From: Ruminococcus sp.
GTDB taxonomy: Bacteria > Bacillota > Clostridia > Oscillospirales > Ruminococcaceae
Assembly (NCBI GenBank): GCA_017516465.1
Contig: JAFXCR010000025.1
Location: forward strand, 1 to 52,321
DNA: 52,321 nt
Direction of reading: 5' to 3'
The stretch's first letter is position 1. Each line of letters starts with the position of its first letter. The position numbers were made by a program, and so were the translations under genes. Positions 42,779-50,956 of this stretch are shown in pieces. A model generated the notes under the pieces. The model had not been told where the DNA came from. It saw nothing but the letters and a program-made list of their open reading frames with translations, and made no database searches.

Positions 42779-45700
42779 TCATGAGAACTGCCACCAATCG
42801 AATTCTGTATCTCCGCTGAATACGAAGTACACATCCTTGGTACCTGATACGTCAGCTATTGCCGGAACTGAGATTTCATCCATAGATGAACCGAATTCCG
42901 CATAGCCGATAACATCGCCCTTGGGGCTTCCTGTACAGATCTTTACAGATCCTCCCTTGCCTCTTAATGTGATATCTGTTACACCCTTATTGAAGTTTAC
43001 ACCACTTACCTTGATCCATTCGCCCTTCTTGCCGACAACAGTTGTGTCGCAGAGACCGTTGGTTGTTATACCCTTGGACTGGCTGGACATTGTTTCAGCC
43101 TGAACCTTATTATAAGGACTGAGTGTTTCAATCTGTGAAACGCCCTTCATTGTACCTGTTGCTGTAAACATACCGTTTGAGAATGTTGCCTCGTCAATGT
43201 GAGGTGAACGGTAGTTTCCGCCGAGGTCGATTGAGCCGTCTGTATTGAGAGCCTGAATATTCATTGCTCTTGAAAGATTACGGCTGTGGTAAAGCATGTA
43301 GTACTTGCCCTTGAATTCAACTATTGAATGGTGGTTATTTCCACCGCCGTCAAGCTTGAATGAAGCAGGATTCTTGAATGCAATACCCTTATATGTGAAA
43401 GGTCCGAGGGGATTTGTGGAAGTCATAACAGCAATTTCAGCGTTTCCGAAGCCATAAGGATTTCCTCCTGTACTCCAGTTTGTACAGTATGAATAGTAGT
43501 ATGTGTTGCCTACCTTGAGTATGCTTGAATCCTCAAAGAGATAAGGAGGATTCATTCTTACTGCACTGCCTGAAAGTGAAGTCATATCAGCACCGAGCTT
43601 GATAGCTCTTGCTGTGCCAGGGTCAGCAGCCTTTCCGGAAGGAACGCCGCCGCCTACATAGAGGTAACCTGAACCGTCATCGTCAACGAGAACAGCAGGG
43701 TCAAAGAGCCATTCAACATCGCCGAAGCCTGATGTACTCTTGTTGATAAGTGCCTTGCCAATAGGATCTGTATAAGGTCCTTCAGGACTGTCAGCTGTGA
43801 GTACGCCGATACCGCCTGCACTGTCTGCAAAGTAAAGGAAGAACTTATCCTTACCGTTGATTGTTTTCCATGCTGCGTCAGGAGCCCATGCGTATGTTGC
43901 CCACTTTGCAGCACCGTTCTGAGTTCTGCCGTTTCTGCCGGCAACCGGAATAGCACCGTGATCTGTCCAGTTTACAAGGTCAGCGGATGAGAAGCAGTTG
44001 ATTGTACCTGAATTATATGTGTTTACCTGAATTTTTCCGTCTGATCTGTACTCAGGAGCGTCGTTTGTTGTGTATACATAGAGTCTGTCCTTGTATACCA
44101 TAAATCCGGGGTCTGCACCGAAACGATGCGTCCAGAGAACGTTGTTTTCGCCTTCCTTCTTCCAGCTGTCAGCGATAGTTATTGTGCTGAACTGAGCCTC
44201 AAACTTTGCTGTATCAACAGGAGGAGCGTTGTTGGGGAATTCCTTGATTTCTCTGAGGATATACTGCTGGAGAAGAACGAGGTCGTTTGTTTCAGCCTTG
44301 CCGCTTTTGTCAACGTCGGCTGCCTTCATGATATTTGAATCTGTGATTTTTCCGATAACTACTCTGCGTGCAAGAACCATATCGAAAGCGTCGATAACGC
44401 TGTCCATTGTTGTATCGCCGCGGATAACGCCGCCTGTCGGAGGTGCTGCGGGAGGTTCGGGATGTCCCTCACCCTGAATTCCTGTACCTGCAACAGCACC
44501 GATAACCTCATCAACGTAGAAGTTTGTGAGAGATTCTGCTGTTTCAATGTAGATCTTTACATTTGAAGCGTCCTCAGGAATCTTGTAGTTTGTATTGTAG
44601 AGCTGTGCCCATGTATCGCTGGGAACTGTCCAGCTGTCGATTTCATCATATGCAGTTTCGCCGGATGCGTCAGTGTACTCGATCTTCATCATCATAGTAA
44701 CTGTTTCGCCGGAATTCTGCTTAACGTGTGCACTGAAGCTGTATTCCTCGCCAGCATTGAAGATATTGCTGGGAAGTGAGTATGCTGCACCCTGCCATGC
44801 GCTTGTTCTGTCTGTTACATAGAGGGACTTGCTTCCCCACTCTGTATAATGTTCATCGCTGCTCTGAGAAACTGCATTTCCGCCTCTGTCAGTCCAACTC
44901 TGAACGCCGTCCTCAAATCCGCACTGGAACCACCAGCCGTATTCGTTAGGCTCCGGAGGTGCCGGAGGAGTAACTTCGCCGTTGACAACGTCGTACTGAT
45001 AATTCTTACCATCGCCCCACTCGCTTGTCGGAATCATCTGTGAAAGTGTTGTATAAGCTGTCTTGGGCTGATTGTTCTTGTCAAAGAGAAGCGCATCTGA
45101 ACCGGATTTCAGCCATGAGTTAGCGTCGTTAGGACCCCAGATACAAACAGCTGTTACACGGTTGGATGAGTTAAGGCGTGATTTATTCCACTCCTTGGCA
45201 TAATCAAAGATTGCCTTGTACTTTGCTGCCTGATCCTGCTGAGAATACTTTCCGTTTTCAAGAGAGATATCAAGCTCTGTTACCTGAACCTGAATTCCGA
45301 GGTCGAGGTACATTTTCATTGCCTGTAAATAGGAATCTGTGCCGGCAAAACCTGTTGCGTTAGCCGGAACGTGAGACTGCATTCCCATACCGTCAATAAG
45401 TCCCTTTGAAATGAGAGGCTTGAGGATTGTTCTTATAATACAGTCACGCTTGTGATCCCAGTATTCGTTATAGTCGTTGTAGAAAAGGCTGCATCCGGCA
45501 GGAGCATATTTTCTTGCGTATGTGAATGCCTTTTCGATGAAGGAGTTGTTTCCGTAAACTGCAACCCATGCAGATTTACCGCCCTCCTGATTGTTGTCTC
45601 CGGGGAGACGGCTGCCGTCCTGATTTCCGCTTGTTCTGCTTGCGTCATCAGAAACAGCCTCATTTACTACGTCATAAGCGTAGAGGTTAAGGTTCGGGTA

Positions 45701-46663
45701 CTGAGTTTTGATAGCCTCGAACATATTCTTGATGTAGCTTTCAAGACGCTGATCCATTACGCTGGATGACACCCAGTTTCCGTTTCCGTTGAAGTTTTCC
45801 TTAAGGAACCACGCCGGAGTCTGGCTGTGCCATACGAAGGCATGACCTCTTACTGCGATATTGTTCTTCTGACAGAAGTCGAAAATAGCTGCCGCACTGT
45901 CAAGCTTTACACCGATATTAGTGCCGCTGCACTTTGACTGATTGAGAGTAGCGTCCGGCTTTGTCTCGTTTTCACACTCAACAGAGTTGTAGTTCTGGAG
46001 TGTTGTAGCGAGGATAGCGTCGTTTCTTACGGTACCGCCGTTGAGGATGTTTCCTACACGGAAGCCGTAGTTTGCAAACTCATCCTTGAGTCCCTTGCTT
46101 CCGGAAGAAGCAGAAACACTGTTTCTTCTTGCTGTTGTTGTGATCTTGAGATCGTCGAATACGAAGTCGTTTTCAGAATCAGAGGTGATAACGAGTTCAA
46201 ATTCATAATTGTTTTCAGGAGCAGAATAATGTGCCGAAAGCTCAGCCCACTCGCCTGCCTTAACCTTTACGGAGTCAAGCTCAACGATAGTTTCCTCTCC
46301 TGTTGAACGGTCGATAGTCTTGAGTGAAAGACGGAAGATTTCGTTCTTTTCGCTGTAAACCTTAACGCTGTAATCGTAGCCTGTTCCGCCGTAGAGGTAG
46401 AAGCCCTTTGATGAGCTTGCACCGTGTGAGGAATCTGTACGTCCTGTAACAGCCATTCCTCGTGAGCCGTCAAAGCCGATTCCATCTTCTGCGGTAAGTG
46501 TAACTACATCGTTGTTCGGATGCCAGCCTTCGTAGCTTTCCTCAAAGTTGTTGGATACGATTTCCGCGGCATACACATTATCGGTCAGTGCCGGCAGAAA
46601 TGTGAACATTCCTGCTCCGACAACAGCCGAAGTCAGTCCTGACACAAATCTTTTCAGTTTCAT
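42779..46663 (-). CDS. Secreted multimodular xylanase: CBM-GH10-CBM-dockerin-GH43-CBM
   Basis: Encodes 1294 residues. Signal peptide (1-32). A CBM22/CBM4_9-type module (33-177). GH10 endoxylanase (about 185-550) with acid/base Glu335 (VVNEAV) and nucleophile Glu463 (VTELDI). A second CBM22-like module (about 573-725). A Pro-rich linker, then a type I dockerin (about 748-805; GDTTMDSVIDAFD and ADVDKSGKAETND calcium loops). GH43 (about 820-1180) with Asp851, Asp988 and Glu1044 as base, modulator and acid. A C-terminal CBM6-like module (about 1185-1294). It cuts xylan and trims its side chains or oligomers while docked on a cellulosome scaffold. GAGGGTG precedes the ATG. Internal dockerins of this type are known in R. 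flavefaciens. Confidence 0.95.
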   Translation of the reverse strand: MKLKRFVSGLTSAVVGAGMFTFLPALTDNVYAAEIVSNNFEESYEGWHPNNDVVTLTAEDGIGFDGSRGMAVTGRTDSSHGASSSKGFYLYGGTGYDYSVKVYSEKNEIFRLSLKTIDRSTGEETIVELDSVKVKAGEWAELSAHYSAPENNYEFELVITSDSENDFVFDDLKITTTARRNSVSASSGSKGLKDEFANYGFRVGNILNGGTVRNDAILATTLQNYNSVECENETKPDATLNQSKCSGTNIGVKLDSAAAIFDFCQKNNIAVRGHAFVWHSQTPAWFLKENFNGNGNWVSSSVMDQRLESYIKNMFEAIKTQYPNLNLYAYDVVNEAVSDDASRTSGNQDGSRLPGDNNQEGGKSAWVAVYGNNSFIEKAFTYARKYAPAGCSLFYNDYNEYWDHKRDCIIRTILKPLISKGLIDGMGMQSHVPANATGFAGTDSYLQAMKMYLDLGIQVQVTELDISLENGKYSQQDQAAKYKAIFDYAKEWNKSRLNSSNRVTAVCIWGPNDANSWLKSGSDALLFDKNNQPKTAYTTLSQMIPTSEWGDGKNYQYDVVNGEVTPPAPPEPNEYGWWFQCGFEDGVQSWTDRGGNAVSQSSDEHYTEWGSKSLYVTDRTSAWQGAAYSLPSNIFNAGEEYSFSAHVKQNSGETVTMMMKIEYTDASGETAYDEIDSWTVPSDTWAQLYNTNYKIPEDASNVKIYIETAESLTNFYVDEVIGAVAGTGIQGEGHPEPPAAPPTGGVIRGDTTMDSVIDAFDMVLARRVVIGKITDSNIMKAADVDKSGKAETNDLVLLQQYILREIKEFPNNAPPVDTAKFEAQFSTITIADSWKKEGENNVLWTHRFGADPGFMVYKDRLYVYTTNDAPEYRSDGKIQVNTYNSGTINCFSSADLVNWTDHGAIPVAGRNGRTQNGAAKWATYAWAPDAAWKTINGKDKFFLYFADSAGGIGVLTADSPEGPYTDPIGKALINKSTSGFGDVEWLFDPAVLVDDDGSGYLYVGGGVPSGKAADPGTARAIKLGADMTSLSGSAVRMNPPYLFEDSSILKVGNTYYYSYCTNWSTGGNPYGFGNAEIAVMTSTNPLGPFTYKGIAFKNPASFKLDGGGNNHHSIVEFKGKYYMLYHSRNLSRAMNIQALNTDGSIDLGGNYRSPHIDEATFSNGMFTATGTMKGVSQIETLSPYNKVQAETMSSQSKGITTNGLCDTTVVGKKGEWIKVSGVNFNKGVTDITLRGKGGSVKICTGSPKGDVIGYAEFGSSMDEISVPAIADVSGTKDVYFVFSGDTEFDWWQFS

Positions 46664-48045: not shown

Positions 48046-48753
48046 ATGATATCGCCATCAGAGCGTAAGAAAAACAGCTTTGCAAAATCATTCCGTCCGT
48101 CTTTCGGAGCTGAAATGAAGAAATATGAAGAACTTTACGTTATGTACACCGTTAAAGGCTACACAAAGGAACTCTGTGAAGAATACGCAGACGCTTTTGT
48201 AAACAACGTAAAAAAACCGGCTGCTGATGATATCATTCAGCTTGCCAGTCTCTACGATAAAATCTATGATAACAAAAGTGCCGCTTTCTATCTCGAAATG
48301 CTCGCAGAAAAAAAGCTCAGCGGTGATGATAAGTTCAACTACTGCATCGAAATGCTCAAAACACAGAGCAAGCTCGGCAGATGGCGTGACGCAGAGGATT
48401 TCCGCACCGAAAACATCAATTTCATGCAGAATGCCTCCCAGAAAAAAAGTCTTTCCGAACAGGCTGATATGTATATCGCTCTCGCTCTTGCAGACTGTGC
48501 CGCAAAACGCTACCGTGAAGCCTTCAAGCTCATGAAGTTCGGCTACAAGCCACAGGGCAAAAACGACACAAAGCTTCTGGAAATCATGATTACCGGTGTT
48601 TATCTTATTGCTTGCTCCGGCGAAACCGAAGGTCTTACTTCCGCTGTCGAAAGTGCTCACGCCTGCCTCAGACTTTTCACTGAATTTGAATACAACTGGA
48701 GCAGAAACGATTATCTCAGCCGTATTGATAAGGCAGCAAAAGGTATAATATAA
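48046..48753 (+). CDS. Helical (TPR-like) cytoplasmic protein, function unknown
   Basis: Encodes 235 residues, no signal or membrane segment, almost all predicted helix. Paired-helix spacing (ADDIIQLASLYDKIYDNKSAAFYLEMLAEKKL, in two halves) suggests tetratricopeptide-like repeats. I do not recognise a family. The frame opens at 48019, but GGGAGGG 9 nt before the ATG at 48046 makes this the start. Own promoter and terminator, so monocistronic. Confidence 0.7.
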   Translation: MISPSERKKNSFAKSFRPSFGAEMKKYEELYVMYTVKGYTKELCEEYADAFVNNVKKPAADDIIQLASLYDKIYDNKSAAFYLEMLAEKKLSGDDKFNYCIEMLKTQSKLGRWRDAEDFRTENINFMQNASQKKSLSEQADMYIALALADCAAKRYREAFKLMKFGYKPQGKNDTKLLEIMITGVYLIACSGETEGLTSAVESAHACLRLFTEFEYNWSRNDYLSRIDKAAKGII

Positions 48754-48761
48754 TATATTAT

Positions 48762-48793
48762 AATGGGGATCATCTGATCCCCATTATTGTTAT
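48762..48793 (+). terminator. Terminator after the helical protein
   Basis: Stem AATGGGGATCA/TGATCCCCATT (48762-48785) followed by ATTGTTAT. Confidence 0.75.
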
Positions 48794-49118
48794 AATTCAA
48801 AAATCGAAAAAATATTTCATAACAAATTATTCATATAACAATGTGTTTTTATTTTAATTATTATACAACTTATTAAATTTCCCTGTTGTCAAAATTCCTT
48901 TTTCTTCCGAAAGTCACTCCTGTATCCGAAAAAATACTGCCGGAATTATCGGATATCACCGTATTTTCTAACTTTTTCAGTCAGAATAATTCTTGCAGCA
49001 ATATACTTTATGTACAAAACCGAAATAGAAATATCTTTGTATTATATTTACAATTTCGTAATATATTTATAATTTAACCTAATAGCAATATTGTACCAAA
49101 TTCAAGCAATATTATCAA
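48794..49118. other. AT-rich noncoding stretch
   Basis: No gene, repeat or clear promoter. A 63-codon frame from a TTG at 48886 has no ribosome site and odd composition. It may be a decayed remnant. Confidence 0.5.
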
Positions 49119-49147
49119 TTGATTATCCTAACTCTATCGCTTATAAT
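49119..49147 (+). promoter_or_regulatory. Sigma-A promoter of the structured RNA
   Basis: TTGATT (49119-49124), 17 bp, TATAAT (49142-49147). Confidence 0.8.
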
Positions 49148-49152
49148 ACAAG

Positions 49153-49537
49153 TAACGGATCATGTGAATGTTCCGACATCACATTAAGATTTATAAAGAT
49201 TTTTTAATGTGTCCTGTAAAATCCGGCAAATATGAACCATTCAGCTATCCGGTTTCAACTCCACCGGAAATCCTTCTATAATTCGTTCTGTCAGTCTGTG
49301 CCTGAAAGCTGCTGTTAAACATTAATGCCTATAATATGTTTAATTGCCTAAAAGCAGCTGTTTATCGCTTGATCTGATCCTGCATTATTATTACTACCGC
49401 TGAAATTCATATTAAGGCACTGCGAAATTTGTGCCTGCCGTAATGCTTAGCGTATAGAGGGTGCGCTCTGCATTGTAAGAATAACGGACTTCATCGACTT
49501 TTTGAGAGGGGGTCAATGAAGTCTGTTGTTTTTTTAA
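49153..49537 (+). ncRNA. Candidate structured noncoding RNA, about 385 nt
   Basis: Between a good promoter and a strong terminator there is no credible gene but a series of hairpins: H1 49156-49175 (CGGA-CAT/ATG-TCCG), H2 49180-49211 (CACATTAA/TTAATGTG), H3 49248-49268 (TCCGGT/ACCGGA), H4 49307-49359 (AGCTGCT/AGCAGCT outside, TTAAACAT/ATGTTTAA inside), H5 49415-49436 (AGGCAC/GTGCCT) and H6 49441-49475 (TAATGC/GCATTG enclosing AGAG/CTCT). It does not show the tRNA-like ends of tmRNA, the conserved cores of RNase P RNA, or the SRP tetraloop region. A 37-codon frame at 49168-49281 lacks a ribosome site. Class and function unknown. Confidence 0.6.
49483..49537 (+). terminator. Terminator of the structured RNA
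   Basis: A 12-bp stem AACGGACTTCAT/ATGAAGTCTGTT (49483-49494 with 49516-49527), extended inside by GACTTTTT/GGGGGTC wobble pairs, then a T7 run. Confidence 0.88.
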
Positions 49538-49555
49538 TGTTTTCTTACATACAAA

Positions 49556-49582
49556 AAGCGTCCGGAAATCCGGACGCTTATT
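49556..49582 (-). terminator. Terminator of glmU
   Basis: An 11-bp stem AAGCGTCCGGA/TCCGGACGCTT (49556-49579), followed on minus by TTTTTGTATG, 4 nt past the glmU stop. Confidence 0.88.
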
Positions 49583-50956
49583 TTATTTCTTATCAGTTTT
49601 CAGTTTCCGGAGTGTATAACCCTCATTGACCTTCATCACACCACGGTCAATCGCAAGTGCGTAGTCCGGAACATCCCTCGTAACAGTAGTTCCCGCCGCC
49701 GTATACACAGCTTTTCCAAGTTTTACAGGAGCTATCAGATTAGTATTACAACCAATAAAGCAGTTATCTCCAATAACACAGCGGCTCTTGGAGATTCCGT
49801 CATAATTTACAGTAACCGTTCCGCAGCCAATATTCACCTTTCTGCCAACATCACTGTCACCGACGTACACAAGATGCGAAACCGCTGTCTTTTCGCCGAT
49901 ATCGGAGTTCTTGATCTCCACGAAATCGCCGATTCTTGCTCCGCTTCTTATATGACTGTCCGGACGGATATGAACGAAAGGTCCGATAATTACTCCGCTT
50001 TCAATCACGGAATTATAGGTATGGGATGTATCAATTTCTACATTGTCTCCGACCCTGCATTCAACAATAACAGCATTGGGGCCAAGAATACAGCCACTTC
50101 CGATTGTGGTTTTTCCTCTTATGATAGTTCCCGGCTGAATCTGAGTTCCTATGCCGATTTCTACGTTTCTTTCGATAATTACGCCATCAGTGCTGACGAA
50201 TTCCACACCATTTTCAAGATGCTTGTCGATAACTGCTCTTTTTGCGTAGTCGTTGAGTGCAAGAAGATCCCTTCTGTCGTTGGCACCCTTGATGATCTCC
50301 GCATTCTCCGACTTGAAAGCTCCTGCCTTCTTACCCTCGGAAAGTGCAATCGCAATGGTATCAGTAAGATAATATTCATTCTGCGCGTTATTGCAGTCAA
50401 GCTTGCCGAGAAGCTCAATCAGGTCGGCAGTTCTGAACCAGTACGCACCGGAGTTCACCTCACGGATCTGCTTCTGTTCCTCTGCGGCGTCCTTCTGCTC
50501 GACAATTCCGCTGATTCCCGACTCTGTACGGATAACTCTGCCGTAGCCATGAGGATTTTCAAGCTCTGCCGTAATAACTGTAACTGAATTCCCCTGTTCT
50601 GTGTGCATTTTAAGGGATTCCCCGATAGTTACCGCATCAATGAACGGTGCGTCGCCGTTGAGGATAAGTGTATTTCCGGATATATCCTTCTCAAGGAACG
50701 GAATTCCCTGCATTACCGCATGACCAGTGCCGAGTCTTTCAGCCTGAAGTGCAGTTTCGCAGCGTCCGCCGAGATATTCGTCTATCATTTCGCCTCTGAA
50801 TCCCTTGATTACACAGATATCGGAAACTCCTGATTCCTCACACGCTGAAATCACCCATTCCAGCATGGGTTCTCCGAGAACTCTCAGAAGCGGCTTAGGC
50901 ATATCTGCCTTCATACGTTTTCCCTGACCACCAGCCAGAATTATTGCTTTGTTCAT
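49583..50956 (-). CDS. glmU: Bifunctional UDP-GlcNAc pyrophosphorylase / GlcN-1-P acetyltransferase
   Basis: Encodes 457 residues, the usual length. It makes UDP-GlcNAc for peptidoglycan and wall polymers. The N-terminal pyrophosphorylase has LAGGQGKRMKADMPKPLL and LNGDAPF. The C-terminal left-handed beta helix has the IG..V.I...S hexapeptides, with VSHLVYVGDSDVG and the catalytic-loop NYDGISKSRCVIG. AGGAGG precedes the ATG. It lies downstream of a lipoprotein gene with a 62-nt gap. Confidence 0.97.
   Translation of the reverse strand: MNKAIILAGGQGKRMKADMPKPLLRVLGEPMLEWVISACEESGVSDICVIKGFRGEMIDEYLGGRCETALQAERLGTGHAVMQGIPFLEKDISGNTLILNGDAPFIDAVTIGESLKMHTEQGNSVTVITAELENPHGYGRVIRTESGISGIVEQKDAAEEQKQIREVNSGAYWFRTADLIELLGKLDCNNAQNEYYLTDTIAIALSEGKKAGAFKSENAEIIKGANDRRDLLALNDYAKRAVIDKHLENGVEFVSTDGVIIERNVEIGIGTQIQPGTIIRGKTTIGSGCILGPNAVIVECRVGDNVEIDTSHTYNSVIESGVIIGPFVHIRPDSHIRSGARIGDFVEIKNSDIGEKTAVSHLVYVGDSDVGRKVNIGCGTVTVNYDGISKSRCVIGDNCFIGCNTNLIAPVKLGKAVYTAAGTTVTRDVPDYALAIDRGVMKVNEGYTLRKLKTDKK

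Follow-up and report, generated by a model that had tools for sequence, protein, structure and literature searches.

We found that positions 49154-49535 on the forward strand of a Ruminococcus contig very probably form an independent gene for a structured noncoding RNA, whose family has no match in Rfam 15. The window, that is, the whole stretch of 52,321 nt that was analyzed, lies on contig C49 of a 1.99-Mb draft genome of 55 contigs. The RNA gene is flanked by its own sigma-A type promoter with a conserved upstream control region and by its own terminator, and it sits in a gene-free gap (48754-49582) whose length had been given, exactly, as 829 nt. A sequence-only reading of this DNA had proposed an independent RNA gene of about 385 nt, perhaps of an undescribed class, and the proposal is supported by relatives, by covariation, by the lack of a conserved frame and by the lack of an Rfam match. 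The region 49150-49537 folded with a minimum free energy (MFE) of -118 kcal/mol, and because this corresponds to a z score of -5.65 against shuffled sequences, none of 100 being equally good, the fold goes beyond chance. Judged from sequence comparison, the conserved shape together with the control region indicates that the folded RNA is real, whereas its role we infer. The features are collected in Table 1.

Table 1. Features of the RNA gene and its surroundings (window coordinates)
Feature	Position	Strand	Basis or remark
c0, gene for a 235-aa TPR-like protein	48046..48753	+	Possible partner, outside the RNA itself; syntenic in 56/75 loci
Conserved upstream control region	49040..49118	+	TTAATATAAAT-like A/T-rich block, two GCAATAT, TCAATTG
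Sigma-70/sigma-A type promoter, TTGATT-17-TATAAT	49119..49147	+	Sequence; conserved in relatives
Predicted RNA gene, ~380 nt	49154..49535	+	Start inferred from promoter, end from T run
P1, 5' hairpin	49156..49175	+	MFE; swap test, moderate
P2, A/T-rich hairpin	49180..49211	+	MFE; swap test without real support
Linker UCCUGURA	49212..49219	+	Unpaired in model; UCCUG conserved
P3a, 5' strand (long-range)	49224..49227	+	Pairs with 49437-49440
P3b, 5' strand	49231..49245	+	Pairs with 49399-49411
P4 hairpin, CCGG-loop-CCGG	49249..49267	+	AACUCC in loop; two-sided changes in 4/6 pairs
P5	49307..49359	+	Outer stem, inner stem AAACAU/AUGUUU, 13-nt loop UAAUGCCUAUAAU, 3' bulge with GCCUAAA
P3b, 3' strand	49399..49411	+	Swap test
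P6 hairpin, GGCAC/GUGCC	49416..49435	+	Two-sided changes in 5/5 pairs
P3a, 3' strand	49437..49440	+	Pair covariation
P7 hairpin, loop UAUAGAGGGUG	49447..49469	+	Two-sided changes in 6/6 pairs; swap test
P8, intrinsic terminator hairpin, then T7	49477..49535	+	GAGAGGG in loop; MFE and swap test

A search with cmscan against Rfam gave no match on the RNA, either in the window or in homologous loci. At gathering thresholds, Rfam 15 returned only four tRNAs from the whole window and nothing from five homologous loci. With relaxed limits, 15 weak matches were obtained in 48700-49700 (E ≤10), the best of which (E 0.045) lay outside the RNA, and eight homologous loci (E ≤1) gave three matches to three different families, none of them at the RNA. 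In length the RNA is comparable to tmRNA and RNase P RNA, and a divergent form of one of these or of 6S RNA might be considered. However, the genome encodes all three elsewhere: the only match of 6S RNA (RF00013) was on contig C4, the only match of type A RNase P RNA (RF00010) on C40, and the single tmRNA match (RF00023) over the cut-off on C35. Furthermore, ARAGORN found no tmRNA in the window, and no sub-threshold Rfam match on the RNA came near a gathering score. The chance that the RNA is a divergent member of these classes is thus practically negligible, and the earlier reading, which set it apart from tmRNA and RNase P RNA in spite of its length, is supported.

Relatives of the RNA were found in most Ruminococcus genomes and in named strains, including strains of R. 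flavefaciens, besides Ruminococcus metagenome-assembled genomes (MAGs). A motif scan of a genome contig collection yielded 80 stretches. From 81 extracted loci we retained 75 complete relatives after dropping five without a complete promoter or 3' end and one duplicate, and a covariance model (R2; 271 positions, 35 pairs) was built from 41 of them. This model detected relatives in 57 of 71 same-genus genomes that were at least 90% complete. BLASTN against 60 related genomes matched 30, namely 30 of 36 from the same genus (own genome included) and none of 24 others; the match in genome G013 (L037) was due to chance, its true copy being found on contig C7 by the covariance model. The remaining 14 of the 71 genomes had no convincing copy even with laxer filters (matches up to 20.8 bits), and therefore the RNA is not needed throughout the genus; five of ten loci from the lax search, when scanned for the promoter and loop motifs, showed no coherent set. 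Nearly all carrier genomes have a single copy. A second match occurred in 4 of 57, three times as a weak chance match (weak extra same-genus matches in G061, G096 and G084 were judged so by eye) and once, in G082, as two equal matches with identical RNA sequence (L047, L084). In this last genome, a single MAG, two contigs carry the RNA together with the TPR-like gene, and the duplication may be real or made by the assembly.

With strict filters, the covariance model matched 4 of 394 genomes in a sample of the order, two of them from the same genus, and 3 of 398 in a sample of the phylum, one being the host genome itself; none outside the genus was credible. The outside-genus matches (G453, L123, L172, L173) were weak or short and, by eye, lacked the promoter and the set of hairpins typical of the family, and were taken as chance. 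No match came from viral contigs scanned for the exact motif or from plasmids and phages searched with BLASTN. Within the genomes searched, the family thus appears to be confined to part of the genus Ruminococcus. Three loci under other titles, L080 (Alistipes), L090 (Clostridiales) and L041 (Oscillospiraceae), carry the RNA beside its usual upstream gene and probably come from mislabelled or loosely named assemblies.

In our structure model, two 5' hairpins (P1 and P2) are followed by a domain that the long-range helix P3 closes off, and this in turn by two 3' hairpins (P7 and P8). The P3 domain contains two three-way junctions, P3a/P6/P3b and P3b/P4/P5. The hairpins previously read as six separate ones are present, but they number seven (P1, P2 and P4-P8), and P4, P5 and P6 are enclosed within P3 rather than separate. 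The terminator had been described as a 12-bp stem with T7; the T run (49529-49535) was as described, but the stem is longer, about 18 bp in the MFE structure (49477-49494 with 49516-49533).

We regard the covariation of this model as decisive for a structured RNA. Compensatory base changes were abundant and above chance in both alignments and in a tree-based count. One alignment, of 79 sequences (A3), was made to fit the structure; in it, 93.2% of the 2733 cells form a pair, two-sided changes occur in 28 of the 35 pairs, and the score is 0.410 versus 0.163 for shuffled and at most 0.082 for slid controls. An unfitted MAFFT alignment (A1) of 41 of the 75 relatives, selected to lie below 82% identity, with L097 left out by hand and the sequences cut at the UCCUG motif, gave two-sided changes in 26 of 35 pairs and a score of 0.343 (0.170 shuffled, at most 0.101 slid). 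Because the sequences are related, compensatory events were also counted on a neighbor-joining tree made from 198 unpaired columns, an event being a branch on which both sides change from one standard pair to another. There were 112 such events, versus 2.9 ± 1.7 (maximum 12) when partners were dealt out among the pairs in 300 rounds.

The single helices were examined by a swap test, in which the strands of each sequence were compared with partners taken from other sequences (56 sequences; L090 was lost from the original 57). P7 and P8 were strongly supported, with 53 and 97 of 1400 swaps, respectively, as good as the native pairing; for P8, the native energy was -28.95 kcal/mol versus -17.16 kcal/mol for swapped strands, which makes it a covarying terminator. 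Support was moderate for P1, P4 and outer P5 (200, 292 and 329 of 1400). It was also moderate for P3b, where native strands gave -12.58 kcal/mol versus -8.87 kcal/mol and 681 of 3080 swaps were as good; this signal was obtained with wider windows and was absent from narrower ones. P2 (582), P6 (633), P3a (617) and inner P5 (957), of 1400 each, were unsupported; for comparison, the controls gave 715 of 1400 for an unpaired segment pair and 1720 of 3080 for a wrong 3' segment. For P6 and P3a the test was uninformative, and P6 rests on pair covariation, as tabulated. All five modelled pairs of P3a have two-sided changes, and its outermost pairs form in only 40 of the 79 sequences. P5 is divided: all five pairs of the outer stem show two-sided changes, and five of the eight inner pairs are invariant. 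The sequence of P3b is variable and its pairing is good in most of the 56 sequences; it is weak (-9.2 kcal/mol or weaker) in 11 of them, mainly in one sub-clade with L047, L057, L101, L102 and L108. In the sub-clade of these five loci and L058, P7 has UAUUGAGGGUG instead of UAUAGAGGGUG, and the P3b/P6 region is remodelled.

The loops are conserved as well. The motif of the P7 loop was found in all 79 sequences, GAGAGGG of the P8 loop in 78, AACUCC of the P4 loop in 77, UCCUG of the linker in 75, and GCCUA of the P5 bulge in 72. Although GCCUAUAA of the P5 loop also occurs in 79 of 79, 74 of these had been retrieved with a pattern that includes it, leaving the window and four loci found by the covariance model alone as independent cases. 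The four most diverged members, which lack UCCUG, retain AACUCC as well as the loop motifs of P5, P7 and P8. The P7 and P8 loops both contain GAGGG.

The absence of a credible coding frame, already noted from the sequence, was borne out: a frame of 37 codons (49168-49281) exists in the window, but no frame is conserved among 75 relatives. This ORF, together with an NTG that often lies 3' of the GAGAGGG loop of P8 and a mean longest closed ORF of 50 aa, a small excess over the 43 aa in mononucleotide shuffles, could be taken to mean a small protein gene or a dual-function RNA. Such a gene is very unlikely, since neither start nor frame nor length of the ORFs is constant among the 75 relatives, substitutions track base pairs, and the NTG after the P8 loop is not universal.

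The promoter reported in the sequence-only reading is present and is kept with fixed spacing in the relatives. Promoter-like sites are common in this AT-rich stretch (10 found versus 5.8 expected), and such a site alone is unremarkable; the remarkable part is its conservation. We aligned the upstream regions of 71 of the 75 loci without gaps, anchored on the -10 box, and found that conservation extends upstream for about 110 nt. Mean information per base was 0.2-0.3 bit upstream of -140, 1.25 bit at -60 and 1.4 bit at -40. The A/T-rich TTAATATAAAT-like block is followed by GCAATAT (49085), a second GCAATAT (49106) and TCAATTG (49115). The two GCAATAT copies, at -63 and -42, are 21 bp, or two helical turns, apart; a TTAATAT block lies near -90 and TCAATTG at the -35. 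GCAA is found at -63 and -42 and at no other position in 59 of the 71 regions, and both copies are present in at least 66. This arrangement suggests that a dedicated activator or repressor acts at the control region. A genome search with CAATATNNTCAATTG (up to two mismatches) hit 144 places versus 46 for its reversed control, from which the pattern differs in dinucleotides. Thirteen places had one mismatch, and the sole exact match is the RNA's own site. A promoter regulon is not claimed.

The gap containing the RNA had been placed between unrelated genes, but the upstream gene (c0) is not simply unrelated. In 56 of the 75 loci it precedes the RNA and has its orientation, the distance being 383-478 nt in 55 of them and 86 nt in one (L091). 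In 24 loci inspected, the interval between them was rich in A/T and, as far as the control region, poorly conserved; the distance is near-constant (55 of 56 loci) in spite of this poorly conserved interval (48754-49075 in the window, and its equivalents). Beyond the TPR-like gene, L099, L061, L052 and many other relatives have, by eye, a divergent response regulator gene and a histidine-kinase-like gene, which are absent from the window. Its position on the strand of c0 at a near-constant distance might make the RNA the 3' UTR of c0, or else it could be a long 5' leader or attenuator of the downstream gene. However, c0 is followed in the window by a terminator-like hairpin of its own (48760-48787), and the RNA is equipped with a conserved promoter and a terminator of its own. 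Moreover, the genes 3' of the RNA differ and stand in either orientation, often convergent (glmU and genes for pyruvate phosphate dikinase, peptidyl-tRNA hydrolase and others, named by eye); no fixed downstream gene on the same transcript, as a cis-regulatory leader would have, was found. With such different genes behind it, in either orientation, the RNA is not a leader, and a leader or UTR origin is highly improbable.

The RNA and c0 also occur together. Among the 71 genomes of the genus, 55 have both, 12 have neither, two have the RNA only (G030, G080) and two have a diverged c0 with no RNA nearby (G016, G098), giving a Fisher p value of 6e-10 that is uncorrected for phylogeny. The pair lies side by side in 48 of the 55 genomes and on separate contigs in seven. 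In the order sample, c0 was found in 2 of 394 genomes, both of the same genus. The c0 protein matched no Pfam family over the cut-off (the best, RPN7, scored 19.7 bits against a cut-off of 29.6) and had no NCBIfam match and no sequence relative in the PDB; "TPR-like" is a candidate label that refers to below-cut-off Pfam similarities. Pairing of the RNA with the ribosome-binding site of c0 was considered and rejected, as it is not conserved (30 loci, by eye). The RNA could be the scaffold of a ribonucleoprotein in which it acts together with the c0 protein. The same-strand synteny, the co-occurrence, the retention of both in the seven genomes where they lie on separate contigs and the restriction of c0 to the genus in the order sample point in this direction. 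On the other hand, the association may reflect shared descent, the four genomes with only one of the two are exceptions to it, and c0 belongs to no family over the cut-off and has no PDB relative. We consider such a scaffold rather unlikely, and infer that c0 is the best candidate for a partner.

We tentatively favor, as one possibility, that the RNA is a trans-acting regulator, free or in a ribonucleoprotein, with a promoter under a dedicated regulator and conserved loops for base-pairing. Its own promoter and terminator and the absence of a conserved ORF fit a trans-acting regulatory RNA. In this scheme, the regulator at the promoter would control the RNA, whose conserved loops would be exposed to pair with other RNAs: the GAGGGUG loops could bind the 16S anti-Shine-Dalgarno sequence or C-rich RNAs, and the pyrimidine-rich AACUCC, with UCCUG where present, could pair with the Shine-Dalgarno regions of mRNAs. 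The putative base-pairing role comes from motif likeness. GAGGGUG in two hairpin loops resembles the genome's Shine-Dalgarno sequences; in front of 31 mechanically called ORFs of at least 200 aa in the window, some surely spurious, GGAGG (10), GAGGT (7) and AGGTG (7) are among the commonest 5-mers. One ORF of 1294 aa (42779-46663, reverse strand), xylanase-like with dockerin-like repeats by eye, has GAGGGTG before its start. The loss of UCCUG from the four most diverged members counts against base-pairing. A more elaborate and doubtful version is a lineage-specific Ruminococcus RNA machine, whose compact domain, with two G-rich Shine-Dalgarno-like hairpin loops and one invariant 13-nt loop, would dock on either the ribosome or C-rich RNAs, which would work with the lineage-specific TPR-like protein, and which a dedicated regulator would switch via the GCAATAT repeats. 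If true, it would be a regulatory system without a known counterpart.

In titles and abstracts of the literature, we found no description of the RNA or its surroundings and no paper on regulatory RNAs of these mostly rumen bacteria; term searches for "Ruminococcus" in PMC8040213, PMC11109978 and PMC6429828, covering the main text of each, gave no match. The RNA may already be listed as an unnamed candidate in a supplementary catalogue. We call the RNA class new because it has neither a match in Rfam 15 nor a description in the literature so covered; the newness concerns the RNA class, and the mechanism is not claimed to be new. The present work adds an RNA family that has no Rfam 15 relative and is supported by covariation in 79 sequences from mostly rumen bacteria. 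The conserved loops and the linked protein offer starting points for specific tests.

OLE, ROOL and GOLLD are large structured bacterial noncoding RNAs whose functions are poorly understood (PMC12286853); the latter two belong to phages and prophages. Like these, the Ruminococcus RNA is highly structured, has no known protein product and is poorly understood in function, but it is shorter (~380 nt) and has no Rfam match and, unlike ROOL and GOLLD, has no match in phage, plasmid or viral collections. 6S RNA is a single long hairpin opened by a central bubble. The Ruminococcus RNA is likewise a stand-alone structured RNA, but it does not have this shape, and the genome has a separate 6S gene. 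RsaI and RsaE of Staphylococcus are trans-acting small RNAs of a Gram-positive bacterium with unpaired C-rich and G-rich motifs. The Ruminococcus RNA is larger and has a long-range enclosed domain, but it resembles RsaI and RsaE, without a shown relation, in its unpaired pyrimidine-rich and G-rich motifs and in having its own promoter and terminator.
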